NCBI GenBank assembly: GCA_018857735.1
Contig: JABMCL010002100.1
Coordinates: 666,001 to 730,000 of the forward strand
Length of the DNA: 64,000 nt
From: Alviniconcha marisindica
Taxonomy: Eukaryota > Mollusca > Gastropoda > Provannidae
Direction: 5' to 3'
Position 1 is the stretch's first letter. The number at the start of each line of letters is the position of its first letter. A model generated the notes under the pieces. That model worked only from the letters and a program-made list of their open reading frames with translations. It was not told the origin of the DNA and searched no databases. The translations under genes were made by a program, and so were the position numbers. This document shows, one piece after another, positions 3,901 to 9,900 of the stretch.

Positions 3901-6900
3901 AAAATGAACGTGTCCAGCTGTCAAGAAAGAAGGAGGGCCAGCAGAAGCTGTGGACCTTACCGTCGTCATCGCGAGGCACGCGGGTGTCGGTGATGGAGGG
4001 CTGGGTGTGTTCACCCGAGTCCATGGGTACGTAGTGGTCCTGCGTCCAGTTGCTGAAGAACCAGTCATTCTGCACACAACACATCACAATGGGTGAAAGA
4101 CCACCCTGATGGAAGACTGTGTTGATGAAAGACCACCCTGATGGAAGACTGTGATGATGAAAGACCACCCTGATGAAGACTGCGCTGACGAAAGACCACC
4201 CTGATGAAGACTGCGCTGACGAAAGACCATCCTGATGAAGACTGCGCTGATGAAAGACCACCCTGATGGAAGACTGTGCTGATGAAAGACCACCCTGATG
4301 GAAGATTGCACTGATGAAAGATCACCCTGATGGAAGACTGCTGATGAAAGACCACACTGATGGAAGACTGTGCTGATGAAAGACACCCTGATGGAAGACT
4401 GTGCTGATGAAAGACCACCCGATAGCAGACCACCCTGATGGAAGACCACTCCTGATGAGACTACCTTAATGAAAGACCACCCTGATGGAAGACCACCCTG
4501 ATGAAAGACCACTCTTATGAGAGTCCACCCTGACGAGACTACCTTAATGAAAGACCACCCTGATGGAAGACCATTCTGATGAGAGACCACCCTGATAAGA
4601 GACCACCCTGGAGGAAGACCACCCTGATGATAGAGACCATCATAATGAAAGACCATCCAGCTGGAAGACCAGCTGAAGACCACCCAGATAAAAAAAAACA
4701 CTCTCATATCAGACCACCCTGATGAAAAACAACTCTCATACAGACCACCCTGACGAAAGTTCATCCTGAGGAGAGACCACCCCTATTTTGAGACCACCTT
4801 TGGTAAAGCCTTTCTCTACGCTGAAAAGTACTCTGAAGGGAGAGCAAGGTGATGCCCTCATTTCTATAGCGCATGATCCCTAGCCAAATCTAAGACACAA
4901 TGCACTGTACAGAAAGATGCAGAAAAATGTATAACATAAACAAAGGACAAAATAAAAAAGGTTTTGGGCCATTAGGAAAACAAAGACTACTGTGGATAAA
5001 CCTCCTTCGTCAACAAAGAACCCAAAGTTTCTCGGCCTGTTGACTTCCTGCTGTGTCCAGCGAAAATATCTTCCTCCTACCCTCTCCAAGTTCTGAGTAA
5101 AAGACGAGAGCACAGAGCACAACCAATTATCTACAGCAAGCATTTAGCCCTGTCTCGCTGTAAATTTACCACTGGACAGTTTGGCTGAAGATTTTGCATA
5201 TCAATATTCTTGAAGCCAAAAGAATACCTACAGAAAAAACTTCTTGTTTTTCAAAACAGGGGCAGGGAAAGAAGCATTAAGTACTAGATCCCAGACTTTT
5301 GTTTTTAATAAGTCATCCAGGCTCTCTAGGAACTCACATGCAGAATGATGCTCTCGATGATGCGACACTGATCTGACATGTCTGTGACCAGTGACACAGT
5401 GTCATCCTCCACTTTCCGAATCAGTGTAGGGCCAAACATAATGGCAAGGTTCTTGGCATCCATCTGAAACCCGTAAAAATACTGTTAGTGCAAAGTCACA
5501 ATGGTAATTTCATCCATCAAAGTTGGTCTACACAACAGCAACATGAGTGCTGAAGTGCTCTAAGCATCTGAGTGTCTTGCAGCATACTGACCTTGTTGGA
5601 CTGTCCATGAGTGGTAACAATGCTGAAGTGTTCAGTCAGATATCTGACGGTCTCATGCACTGACCTTGTTGGACTGTCCATGAGTGGTCACAATGCTGAA
5701 GTGTTCAGTCAGATGTCAGAAGGTCTCATGCACCAACCTTGTTGGACTGTCTATGAGCAGCAACAATGCTGAGGTGTTCAGCCAGATGTTTAAATGTCTG
5801 GTGCAGACCTTGTTGGACTGTCCATGAGCAGCAACAATGCTGAGGTGTTCAGCCAGATGTTTAAATGTCTGGTGCAGACAATGTTGGACTGTCCATGAGC
5901 AGCAACAATGCTGAGGTGTTCAGCCAGATGTTTAAATGTCTGGTGCAGACCTTGTTGGACTGTCCATGAGCAGCAACAATGCTGAGGTGTTCAGCCAGAT
6001 GTTTAAATGTCTGGTGCAGACCTTGTTGGACTGTCCATGAGCAGCAACAATGCTGAGGTGTTCAGCCAGATGTTTAAATGTCTGGTGCAGACCTTGTTGG
6101 ACTGTCCATGAGCAGCAACAATGCTGAGGTGTTCAGCCAGATGTTTAAATGTCTGGTGCAGACAATGTTGGACTGTCCATGAGCAGCAACAATGCTGAGG
6201 TGTTCAGCCAGATGTTTAAATGTCTGGTGCAGACCTTGTTGGACTGTCCATGAGCAGCAACAATGCTGAGGTGTTCAGCCAGATGTTTAAATGTCTGGTG
6301 CAGACCTTGTTGGACTGTCCATGAGCAGCAACAATGCTGAGGTGTTCAGCCAGATGTTTAAATGTCTGGTGCAGACCTTGTTGGACTGTCCATGAGCAGC
6401 AACAATGCTGAGGTGTTCAGCCAGATGTTTAAATGTCTGGTGCAGACCTTGTTGGACTGTCCATGAGCAGCAACAATGCTGAGGTGTTCAGCCAGATGTT
6501 TAAATGTCTGGTGCAGACCTTGTTGGACTGTCCATAAGCAGCAACAGTGCTACGGTCATTTAGCCAGGTGCTTGGACACCTCATACCATGCTGACGCTCT
6601 CAGATTTTCTCCGACTACTATACACAAGCAGCAACGGTGATAAAGTGATCAACAGGTGTCTGAAGGTCTCATAATGGTACCGTACTGCACTGACCTTGCT
6701 AGCCTGACCATGAGCAACAACTGTGCTGAGGTGTTCGGCCAGGTGTTTGGACACCTCAACAATGCACTGACCCTGTTAGCCTGACCATGAGCAGTGACAG
6801 TACGGAGGTGTTAGCCAGTGTCTGAAGGTCTCATAATCATACAATACTGCATTGACCTTATTGGCCTGACCATGGGCAGCGACAGTGCTAGGTGTTCGGC

Positions 6901-9900
6901 CACGTGTTTGAAGGTCTCATAATCATACAATACTGCATTGACCTTGTTGGCCTGACCATGGGCAGCGACAGTACTGAGGTGTTCCGCCAGGTGTCTGAAG
7001 GTCTCATAATCATACAATACTGCATTGACCTTGTTGGCCTGACCGTGGGCAGTGACAGTGCTAGGTGTTCGGCCAGGTGTTTGAAGGTCTCATAATCATA
7101 CAATACTGCACTGACCTTGTCGGCCTGACCATGGGCAGTGACAGTGCTAGGTGTTCGGCCAGGTGTTTGAAGGTCTCATAATCATACAATACTGCACTGA
7201 CCTTGTCGGCCTGACAATGGGCAGCAACAGTGCTGAGATGTTTGGCCAGGTGTCTGAAGGTCTCATAATCATACAATACTGCACTGACCTTGTTGGCCTG
7301 ACCATGGGCAGCGACAGTGCTGAGGTGTTCGGCCAGGTGTTTGAAGGTCTCGTAGTGGTGCTCTGGCAGTGTGTGCAGCAGGCGCTTCAGCTTCAGCATG
7401 CGCTTCTCTGGGTTCGGGTTCCTGTTGGCTTCAATGAACGCGTCATAGAGATCTGCACATCAACAAAAACCAAATCCAGCTTACTGCGAACACTTCTTAA
7501 AGTTACAGCTGACTAGTTTTCATAAATCATTCTGTACATTTTTTAAACCACTTTTCAAACCTTGTATCAGGTGACATGTCCCTACCTTCCACACTACAGC
7601 TAGTTAACGTCCAGACAAGGTCAACTTTTCAGCAAATCTGGATTCTAGCCCTCGCCATGCACATGCAAGTTTCCTGAACAGCCTTGAAAGAGCTGTCAGA
7701 AGAATGTCTGATTACCAATCTGTCAGTCTGTTAAAAAAAATGGTTGCTAAGCTTTAGGTGTTAGTGTGTGCAAGCAGGTTGCAGAGGGGAAAAAAGTCTC
7801 ACCTGGCGTGACAAGAGGTTGAGGCAGCTTGCGGAAGAACGCTTTCAACAGTGAGCTGACCACGTTGACATCCAACCACTTGTCATTGTCCATGTTCATG
7901 TTCTCTATCCCTCGATTCAGCTCTTCTTGCATGTGTGACACAGCCACCGAATTTCCGGGGACACGATACACTCCAATGACATCCAGTCCGCGGGCCTCCA
8001 CAATGCGAGTACACAGCTCCACAATGAGAGGAACAAACTGCAAACACACACAGACACACCCATGTCACCTTTGCTTTACATGAAGGGCAATGTCATGAGA
8101 GCTGTTAAAACCACTGGCCTCCATCAAATAATACTCTGTACTGGATAAGGTGCGACAACTGTAAATCTTAATTCATGTTATTGCAATACAAAAACATTAA
8201 TGTTCAAGTGACACATTCAAAGAACATAAGAACACAAGAAAAAAGAGAATATGATAATAACAAGGCAAAACCTAACACAAGGCAAGATCTCAGCTGAAGT
8301 TACACACACACTCACACACATGCACACACACACACACACACACATGCGTGCGCACACCCACTCACCCACACACGCAAATTTTCATCAGAAGTTACTCTCT
8401 CACTCACATGCACACACACACACACACACAGAGGAACACTCTTCAAAGGCAATTGTATTTGTGTTCACCACATCTGCACACATGCACAGGCCCTGCTGTT
8501 TGTCGGCACACATAAGTCTGTACTGTGAAAAGAGCTGTAAAACATCTGGGTATGCACGGAAGTCTGCCCACCCCCCACACTTACTGACACACACACTGAC
8601 CTCAAGGTTGGGCAAGGGGAAGACCCCTTCACCCCCCCCAACCAAAGTCTCACACACTGACCTCACTGTTGGGTGAGGGGAAGCAGTCTTCCAGGGGGAC
8701 ACCAAATGTGGCACTTTGAGAGGTCATCTTACCCCCCCCCCCCCCCCCCCCCCCACCTTGAGCCTCACACACCAACCACTGACTTCATTGTTGGGTGAGG
8801 GGAAGCAATCTTCCAGGGGGACACCAAATGTGGCACTTTGAGAGGTCTTCTTCCCCCACCCTGAGCCTCACACACCAACCACTGACCTCATTGTTGGGCG
8901 AGGGAAAGCAGTCCTCTAGCGGGACGCCAAAGGTGCACTTGGAGATGTCCTCAACCTCCTCCAGCAGCGCCTGGTCATCCGCCGCCTGCTTCTTGAAGCT
9001 GCGTGGCATGATGCGTCCCTTCCAGCCTCCCTTCTTCCCGCTGCTCTCCTCTGAAGCCCACAACCAACACACTTCACTGAGCCAGCCAGGGCACAAGAGC
9101 ACAGACCGCTGAACAAAAGAAGCGGAGGGGGTGGAGGGAGGAGGTAGAAGGTATGAGGGAGGAGGTAGCAGGTGCCAGGGTGGGGGTGGAGGGAGGAGGT
9201 AGAAGGTGTGAGGGGGAGGGGTGGCGGTGGGGAAGTGGACAGGATGGAGGGAGGAGGTAGAAGGTGGAGGGAGGGGGTGGTGGTGGGGAAGTGGAGGGGA
9301 TGGGGGGGAGGTAGAAGGTGCGAGGGAGGGGGTGGGGTGGGGAAGTGGAGGGGATGGAGGAGGTAGAAGGTGGGGAGGGAGGGGTGGAGGGAGGAGGTAG
9401 AAGGTGGAGGGAGGGGGTGGTGGTGGGGAAGTGGAGGGGATGGAGGGAGGAGGTAGAAGGTGGCGAGGGAGGGGGTGGTGGGGGAAGTAGAAGGGGAGGG
9501 AGGAGGTGAAGGTGGGGAGGGAGGGGTGGAGGGAGGAGGTAGAAGGTGCGAGGGAGGGGGTGGTGGTGGGGAAGTGGAGGGGATGGGGGGGAGGTAGAAG
9601 GTGGGGAGGGTGGGGAGTGGAGGGGAGGAGGAGGTAGAAGGTGGGAGGGAGGGGGTGGAGGGAGGAGGAGAAGGTGGAGGGAGGAGGGAGGAGGTAGAAG
9701 GTGGAGGGAGGAGGTAGGAGGTGGGGAAGTGGAGGGGATGGAGGGAGGAGGTAGAAGGTGTGAGGGAGGGGGTGGCGGTGGGGAAGTGGAGGGGGTGGAG
9801 GGAGGAGGGAGAAGGTGTGAGGGAGGGGATGGAGGGAGGAGGTAGAAGGTGCGAGGGAGGGGTGGCGGTGGGGAAGCGGAGGGAGGAAGTAGAAGGTGTG

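Follow-up and report, generated by a model that had tools for sequence, protein, structure and literature searches.

A minisatellite built from an exon end and its splice donor in an ARHGAP21/23-like gene of the snail Alviniconcha marisindica

Tandem exon duplication copies coding sequence beside its source within a gene. The human gene IFI6 (6-16, G1P3) carries a minisatellite with a unit of about 12 bp. For the IFI6 minisatellite, PMC2572611 and PMC4526556 cite Turri, Cuin and Porter (1995). Here we analyse 64,000 nucleotides from the snail Alviniconcha marisindica (contig JABMCL010002100.1, positions 666,001 to 730,000; the whole stretch is called the window below), whose minus strand encodes a PDZ-PH-RhoGAP protein (Pfam PDZ_6, PH, RhoGAP), and in which the end of one RhoGAP exon, together with its 5' splice site, recurs as a tandem array in the intron that follows. 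Three described systems come close to it. According to PMC4526556, the IFI6 minisatellite supplies several splice donors and two downstream units are used; De Grassi and Ciccarelli (2009; PMC2812944) describe tandem repeats at exon-intron boundaries in human segmental duplications that can change splicing; and a review (PMC3443670) gives tandem duplication around AGGT as a reported route to new introns. A search of the titles and abstract openings of the open-licence literature, which targeted gastropods little and did not name ARHGAP21/23, found no exon-end array in a gastropod. Our analysis indicates that the array in the window is likely an intronic minisatellite derived from the gene's own exon end by ordinary tandem duplication, with the donor-crossing copies tolerated in a repeat-rich genome.

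Structure and origin of the array

The last 63 nt of the founder exon (7351-7289, 21 codons), which precede the donor AAG|GTCAGT, are repeated in tandem 22 times further, the final copy ending at 5592, which makes 23 units counting the exon itself, one of them truncated (6670-6628). Regular units add 8-24 intronic bases to the 63-nt exon end, and successive copy ends lie 87, 86, 86, 87, 86, 83, 79, 67 and 109 bp apart, then 71 bp (69 or 73 beside two variant units), then 73 and 73 bp. Comparison of the donor region with the array gave a score of 153 for the first block and 82 for the second, against shuffle means of 17 and 16 (60 shuffles each), and Tandem Repeats Finder (TRF) independently called both blocks (6763-7351, period 86; 5589-6551, period 71). 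Alignment of the units to the exon, a check proposed in the initial annotation of this DNA, covered all units but the truncated one (22 of 23) and recovered the shared 63-nt tail. The exon-tail array that the annotation had placed in the exon's own downstream intron is real; its count of roughly 20 copies is corrected to 22 plus the exon, and the described step in unit length from 87 to 71-73 bp is borne out for the two regular blocks, the irregular steps of 83, 79, 67 and 109 bp between them having been overlooked.

The copies differ in how far they have changed. At least three of those in the first block have lost one coding base, as seen in the unit alignment. In the second block the exon part is identical in eight of the nine full copies compared, the ninth differing at one base, and the near identity of these 71-bp units suggests that individuals may differ in their number. 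Two 71-bp units lying four units (284 bp) apart within 5738-6518 both have ATT for AAG before GT, destroying AG|GT. This suggests that a block of four 71-bp units was itself duplicated, giving a possible higher-order repeat.

When the source assembly (817.6 Mb, 2806 contigs) was searched with the 87-nt unit, 21 matches were obtained, all at the founder exon and in its intron (counts from searches of this assembly are lower bounds), rather than at the many genome sites of a dispersed or heterochromatic satellite family. Nor are whole exons with acceptor and donor repeated, as they are in tandem exon duplication, the units being confined to the last part of the exon. What the array does include is the exon-intron junction, as a splice-junction minisatellite does.

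Proteins of Batillaria attramentaria and Pomacea canaliculata are the best matches to the encoded protein (83% identity each, covering 100% and 76% of the query stretch), and oyster, mussel and fish homologues in the match list carry the names RhoGAP 21 or 23; judged by its sequence, the gene is ARHGAP21/23-like. On these matches the source animal is probably a caenogastropod. Using tblastn with the Batillaria and Pomacea proteins and picking GT/AG borders by hand, we placed 19 coding exons in the window, of which the founder exon, numbered 16 in the annotation, is the 15th; further exons may exist. The joined exons have an open frame from the second exon on; the first does not fit this frame, which probably reflects a missing exon between the two.

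Relatives ranging from snails to fish share the conserved exon end, which identifies the exon as the source and the array as the derivative. All 22 aligned units carry CAG (Q) at a codon that reads H in Batillaria and Pomacea, which makes the array younger than the H-to-Q change in the snail lineage if that change happened once. The Batillaria and Pomacea proteins continue uninterrupted across this border and the two other affected borders of the gene (see below). A paralogue was considered as supplier of the 71-bp unit and rejected, since no close paralogue of the RhoGAP exons was found, other loci reaching at most 44% identity. These comparisons support the view that a tandem duplication running over the donor gave rise to the array from the end of its own exon. 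The diverged 86/87-bp block beside the nearly identical 71-bp block points to more than one duplication episode, in agreement with the annotation, which had proposed at least two.

We infer the following course of events. A tandem duplication would have spanned the exon-intron border. Since the unit still attached to the body of the exon retains the same donor, and splicing can choose the first among equal donors, the protein would have stayed as it was and the duplication would have been tolerated. From then on the extra copies would have drifted as intron, and slippage or unequal exchange would have amplified them in two or more rounds; the 71-bp block would be recent.

Table 1. Window coordinates of the founder exon, its array, the next exon and the two other exons of the gene that are followed by copies of their own ends
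Feature	Position	Strand	Remarks
Founder coding exon (E14), RhoGAP domain	7289..7452	minus	last 63 nt (7351-7289) = founder unit; donor AAG|GTCAGT
First block, copies of 86-87 bp (63 nt of exon end, 23-24 nt of intron)	6774..7288	minus	five copies 90-95% identical to exon end, sixth 85% (step 83)
Irregular, partly truncated copies	6519..6773	minus	steps 79, 67, 109
Second block, 71-bp copies (63 + 8 nt)	5738..6518	minus	donor mostly AAG|GTCTGC; two units with ATT|GT
Two distal, most diverged copies	5592..5737	minus	76-78% identity; full AAG|GTCAGT donors
Next exon (E15)	5338..5463	minus	borders without local copy
Second case: exon E12 (9050-8887) and copies	8590..9050	minus	unit: final 64 nt of the exon, donor and about 38 intronic nt
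Third case: exon E17 (3076-2773, ...SQTSLTSSL) and copies	1905..3076	minus	about 31 nt exon end + donor CAG|GTATGT + about 40 nt intron

Arrays at other exon borders and the rate expected by chance

Two further exons of the same gene are followed by copies of their own ends: two full copies and a partial one after the exon ending at 8887, and about 11 after the exon ending at 2773. Comparison by shuffles of 12 arrays (none beyond 27 kb; 19 merged arrays are listed in the window) with exon borders up to 6 kb away gave matches for the founder array (both blocks) and for these two, with z of 24-47, and values of about 3 at most for the others. Each of the two units was found in the assembly only at its own site, and all 158 coding bases that lie in TRF minisatellites fall in the three exon ends (63 + 63 + 32). 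A mirror image is seen in another gene with a RhoGAP exon (locus L029), where 16 copies of an intron end and exon head stand before the acceptor. The unit there, of about 28-31 bp, consists of the intron end and about the first 11 exon bases (TTCCTGGCAG|GTCTGACATGT; L029:1003-1504, that is G000:C1771, about 809051-809552); 17 pattern matches were counted including the true one, and the array scored 55, whereas 500 shuffles averaged 15 and did not exceed 24.

How often would a border be hit by chance? Local repeats span 3 of the 18 donors and none of the 19 acceptors in the window, compared with 19% of 3000 random points. For the donors, the probability of three or more hits is 0.69 at this rate and 0.43 at 13%, the stricter minisatellite coverage outside exons; an enrichment of arrays at donors was thus not found in the window (18 donors against 3000 random points). 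For the acceptors, the probability of no hit is 0.018 at 19% and 0.07 at 13%, and acceptors are possibly hit less often than arbitrary points. An asymmetry between donors and acceptors (3/18 versus 0/19, Fisher p 0.105) was suggested by these counts and then weakened by the acceptor-side array of L029. Minisatellites cover 2.9% of coding exon bases in the window versus 13.1% of the rest. The simplest reading is that tandem duplication occurs everywhere, is removed within exons and is tolerated at donors. Tandem repeats make up 18% of the window and minisatellites 12%; the corresponding values in 120 kb sampled from 12 further contigs, with 32.5 kb of this sequence reading N, are 25% and 17%.

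The initial annotation had the duplications anchored at the exon-intron border. No special anchoring is required, because the event is not unique to the founder exon and donors are hit like random points. A wider claim would be that minisatellites in this snail's genome arise again and again at splice junctions, donors and acceptors alike. A noticeable share of introns would then begin or end with arrays of splice sites fused to pieces of coding sequence, which would keep supplying alternative donors, acceptors and in-frame exon extensions. We consider this unlikely; if borders were indeed hot spots, this would bear on intron growth and on the origin of alternative splice sites. It also seems quite unlikely that splice borders are favoured starting points of tandem duplication, for example via AG|GT repeats or nascent-RNA structures. 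The four border arrays in a small sample (three at donors, one at an acceptor), with AG|GT at each junction, and the five array edges in the first 15 kb that lie 65 nt or less from a border are what such a preference would predict, but the donors are not hit above the random rate and the acceptors are hit below it, and matched exons are free of overlapping repeats in the RhoGAP-like loci L028, L039, L042, L044 and L046, as are the five clathrin exons of L047. The sequence letters themselves were inspected at four of these loci. A search with the clathrin heavy chain gave 30 matches (the gene and a second, partial set on the same contig), among which no extra tandem exon-end copy was seen, though short copies would escape; query overlaps of up to about 20 residues between adjacent exons were taken as alignment run-over.

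Other repeats were recorded along the way. Two arrays were considered as old border arrays and rejected, the one at 13752-14641 having no similarity to an exon border above that of shuffles and the one at 4094-4782 not being exon-derived by the shuffle test. The former is a 47-bp array of about 19 copies that begins about 20-27 nt past the donor of the exon ending at 14661 (E8), and its unit holds TTTAAACAG|GTGGACT, which resembles an acceptor and a donor at once; the latter is a 16/32-bp array that ends 25 nt before the acceptor at 4069 (E16) and is rich in TCTTTCATCAG. In L046 an array that stands soon after the donor looks intron-only. At 34070-35460 there is an apparent tandem duplication with an offset of 725 bp, and minus-strand open reading frames at 34071-34730 and 35054-35455 have about 130 residues in common. 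The stretches at 22640-22840 and at about 2010-2130 of L028, near another RhoGAP gene, have similar translations and are probably a dispersed repeat, and 80% of one 10-kb stretch (L021, G000:C2300:50001-60000) is minisatellite according to TRF.

Candidate donors within the array

A donor matrix that combines 15 other donors of the window with metazoan frequencies gives the true donor a score of 10.1, and the full sequence of this donor, AAG|GTCAGT, is present in five of the 22 copies. A weaker AAG|GT is present in 13 copies, continuing as GTCAAT in three (score 5.1), GTCTGC in nine (5.9) and GTTGGT in one (5.9); two copies have ATT|GTCTGC (score 0.3), one is out of register, with AGG|GTCAGT two bases further on, and one is truncated. 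Several units therefore contain a plausible 5' splice site, as in a splice-junction minisatellite (5/22 full, 13/22 weaker). The annotation's claim that a coding-like tail and a 5' splice site arise anew in every unit is not supported in that form, given these counts and the copies that have lost a coding base.

Modelled use of the donor at 7202 would add 87 nt, or 29 amino acids in frame, just before a conserved 12-residue stretch, and the other seven of the eight modelled downstream donors of the founder exon lead to a frameshift, a stop or both. After the exon ending at 2773, use of the first downstream donor (2701) would add 72 nt, or 24 in-frame residues, and the frame does not stay open with any of the next four modelled. 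Three downstream donors were modelled after the exon ending at 8887, and all three fail to keep the frame open. Because nearly all modelled downstream donors break the frame, a donor reservoir would mostly give unproductive transcripts. The annotation's description of the array as a reservoir of alternative donors is weakly supported, with the full donor sequence in five of the 22 copies and an open frame from only the first of the eight modelled donors.

We regard it as very unlikely that the array functions by offering alternative 5' splice sites that give RhoGAP isoforms, or unproductive transcripts that lower expression. Copies 2 and 3 do have the exon's own AAG|GTCAGT and donor 2 gives the modelled in-frame addition, but most other copies are weaker (13/22) or lack AG|GT in register (4/22) and the seven other modelled donors break the frame. 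Human IFI6 is a reported precedent for repeat donors that are used (PMC4526556), and the codon bias of the 71-bp unit (see below) would fit a coding past; at the same time, an insertion at this site is present in none of the 60 relatives' proteins among the matches listed, and the hit rate at donors equals the random rate.

Some points do weigh against reading the array as an ordinary intronic minisatellite. The first downstream donor is identical in sequence to the real one, which makes its use plausible, and its occasional use, adding the 29 extra in-frame residues, is possible. In the 71-bp unit, moreover, 7 of 21 third codon positions depart from the exon, against 3 of the 42 remaining positions (Fisher p 0.012), and at C sites only the differences are 6/11 versus 1/12 (p 0.027). 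This is a hint of past coding constraint on that lineage, drawn from one lineage and few sites. Neutral drift predicts no strong bias, and this codon bias accordingly counts against a neutral history of the 71-bp lineage; it may be due to chance or be a sign of once being read as coding. Elsewhere the bias is less or absent, with 2/6 and 2/3 of the differences at third positions in two ungapped proximal copies and 6/14 and 6/15 in the distal copies. Taken as an intronic minisatellite, the array is explained without special function, and it is probably without function altogether. An assembly artefact, in the array or its copy number, is extremely improbable, for while nearly identical 71-bp units are the type of tract that assemblies miscount, the first-block and distal copies are 5-24% off the exon, with private changes that misassembly would hardly invent, and the phenomenon is seen at three different exons.

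Comparison with known systems

In one gene, the visible layers of this array indicate how a donor-crossing duplication can be absorbed and become intron, and the array offers a natural test of how a splice site is chosen when several identical donors compete. It is also a warning that, in molluscan genomes rich in repeats, gene prediction may extend exons falsely.

In IFI6 as in the snail gene, tandem units containing 5' splice sites are found at the end of an exon. The IFI6 unit is short, about 12 bp. Two of its downstream units are reported as used donors (PMC4526556), whereas the snail unit holds 63 coding bases of a catalytic domain and the donors in the array are putative. With the repeats of human segmental duplications the snail array shares minisatellite expansion across an exon-intron boundary; those repeats lie in recent paralogues and average 4 repeats of 30 bp (PMC2812944), whereas the snail gene, for which no close paralogue was found, has 23 copies and is affected at three of its donors. 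As in intron gain through AGGT, duplicated coding sequence with AG|GT yields extra splice-site-like sequences, but the AGGT duplication makes a new intron (PMC3443670) and the snail copies sit within an intron. Tandem exon duplication and the snail array both copy coding sequence beside its source, the snail unit being only the last 63 of 164 nt of the exon, without an acceptor. The snail case thus belongs to a known kind, and is distinct in its longer coding part, its larger number of copies and its occurrence at three donors of one gene and one acceptor of another.

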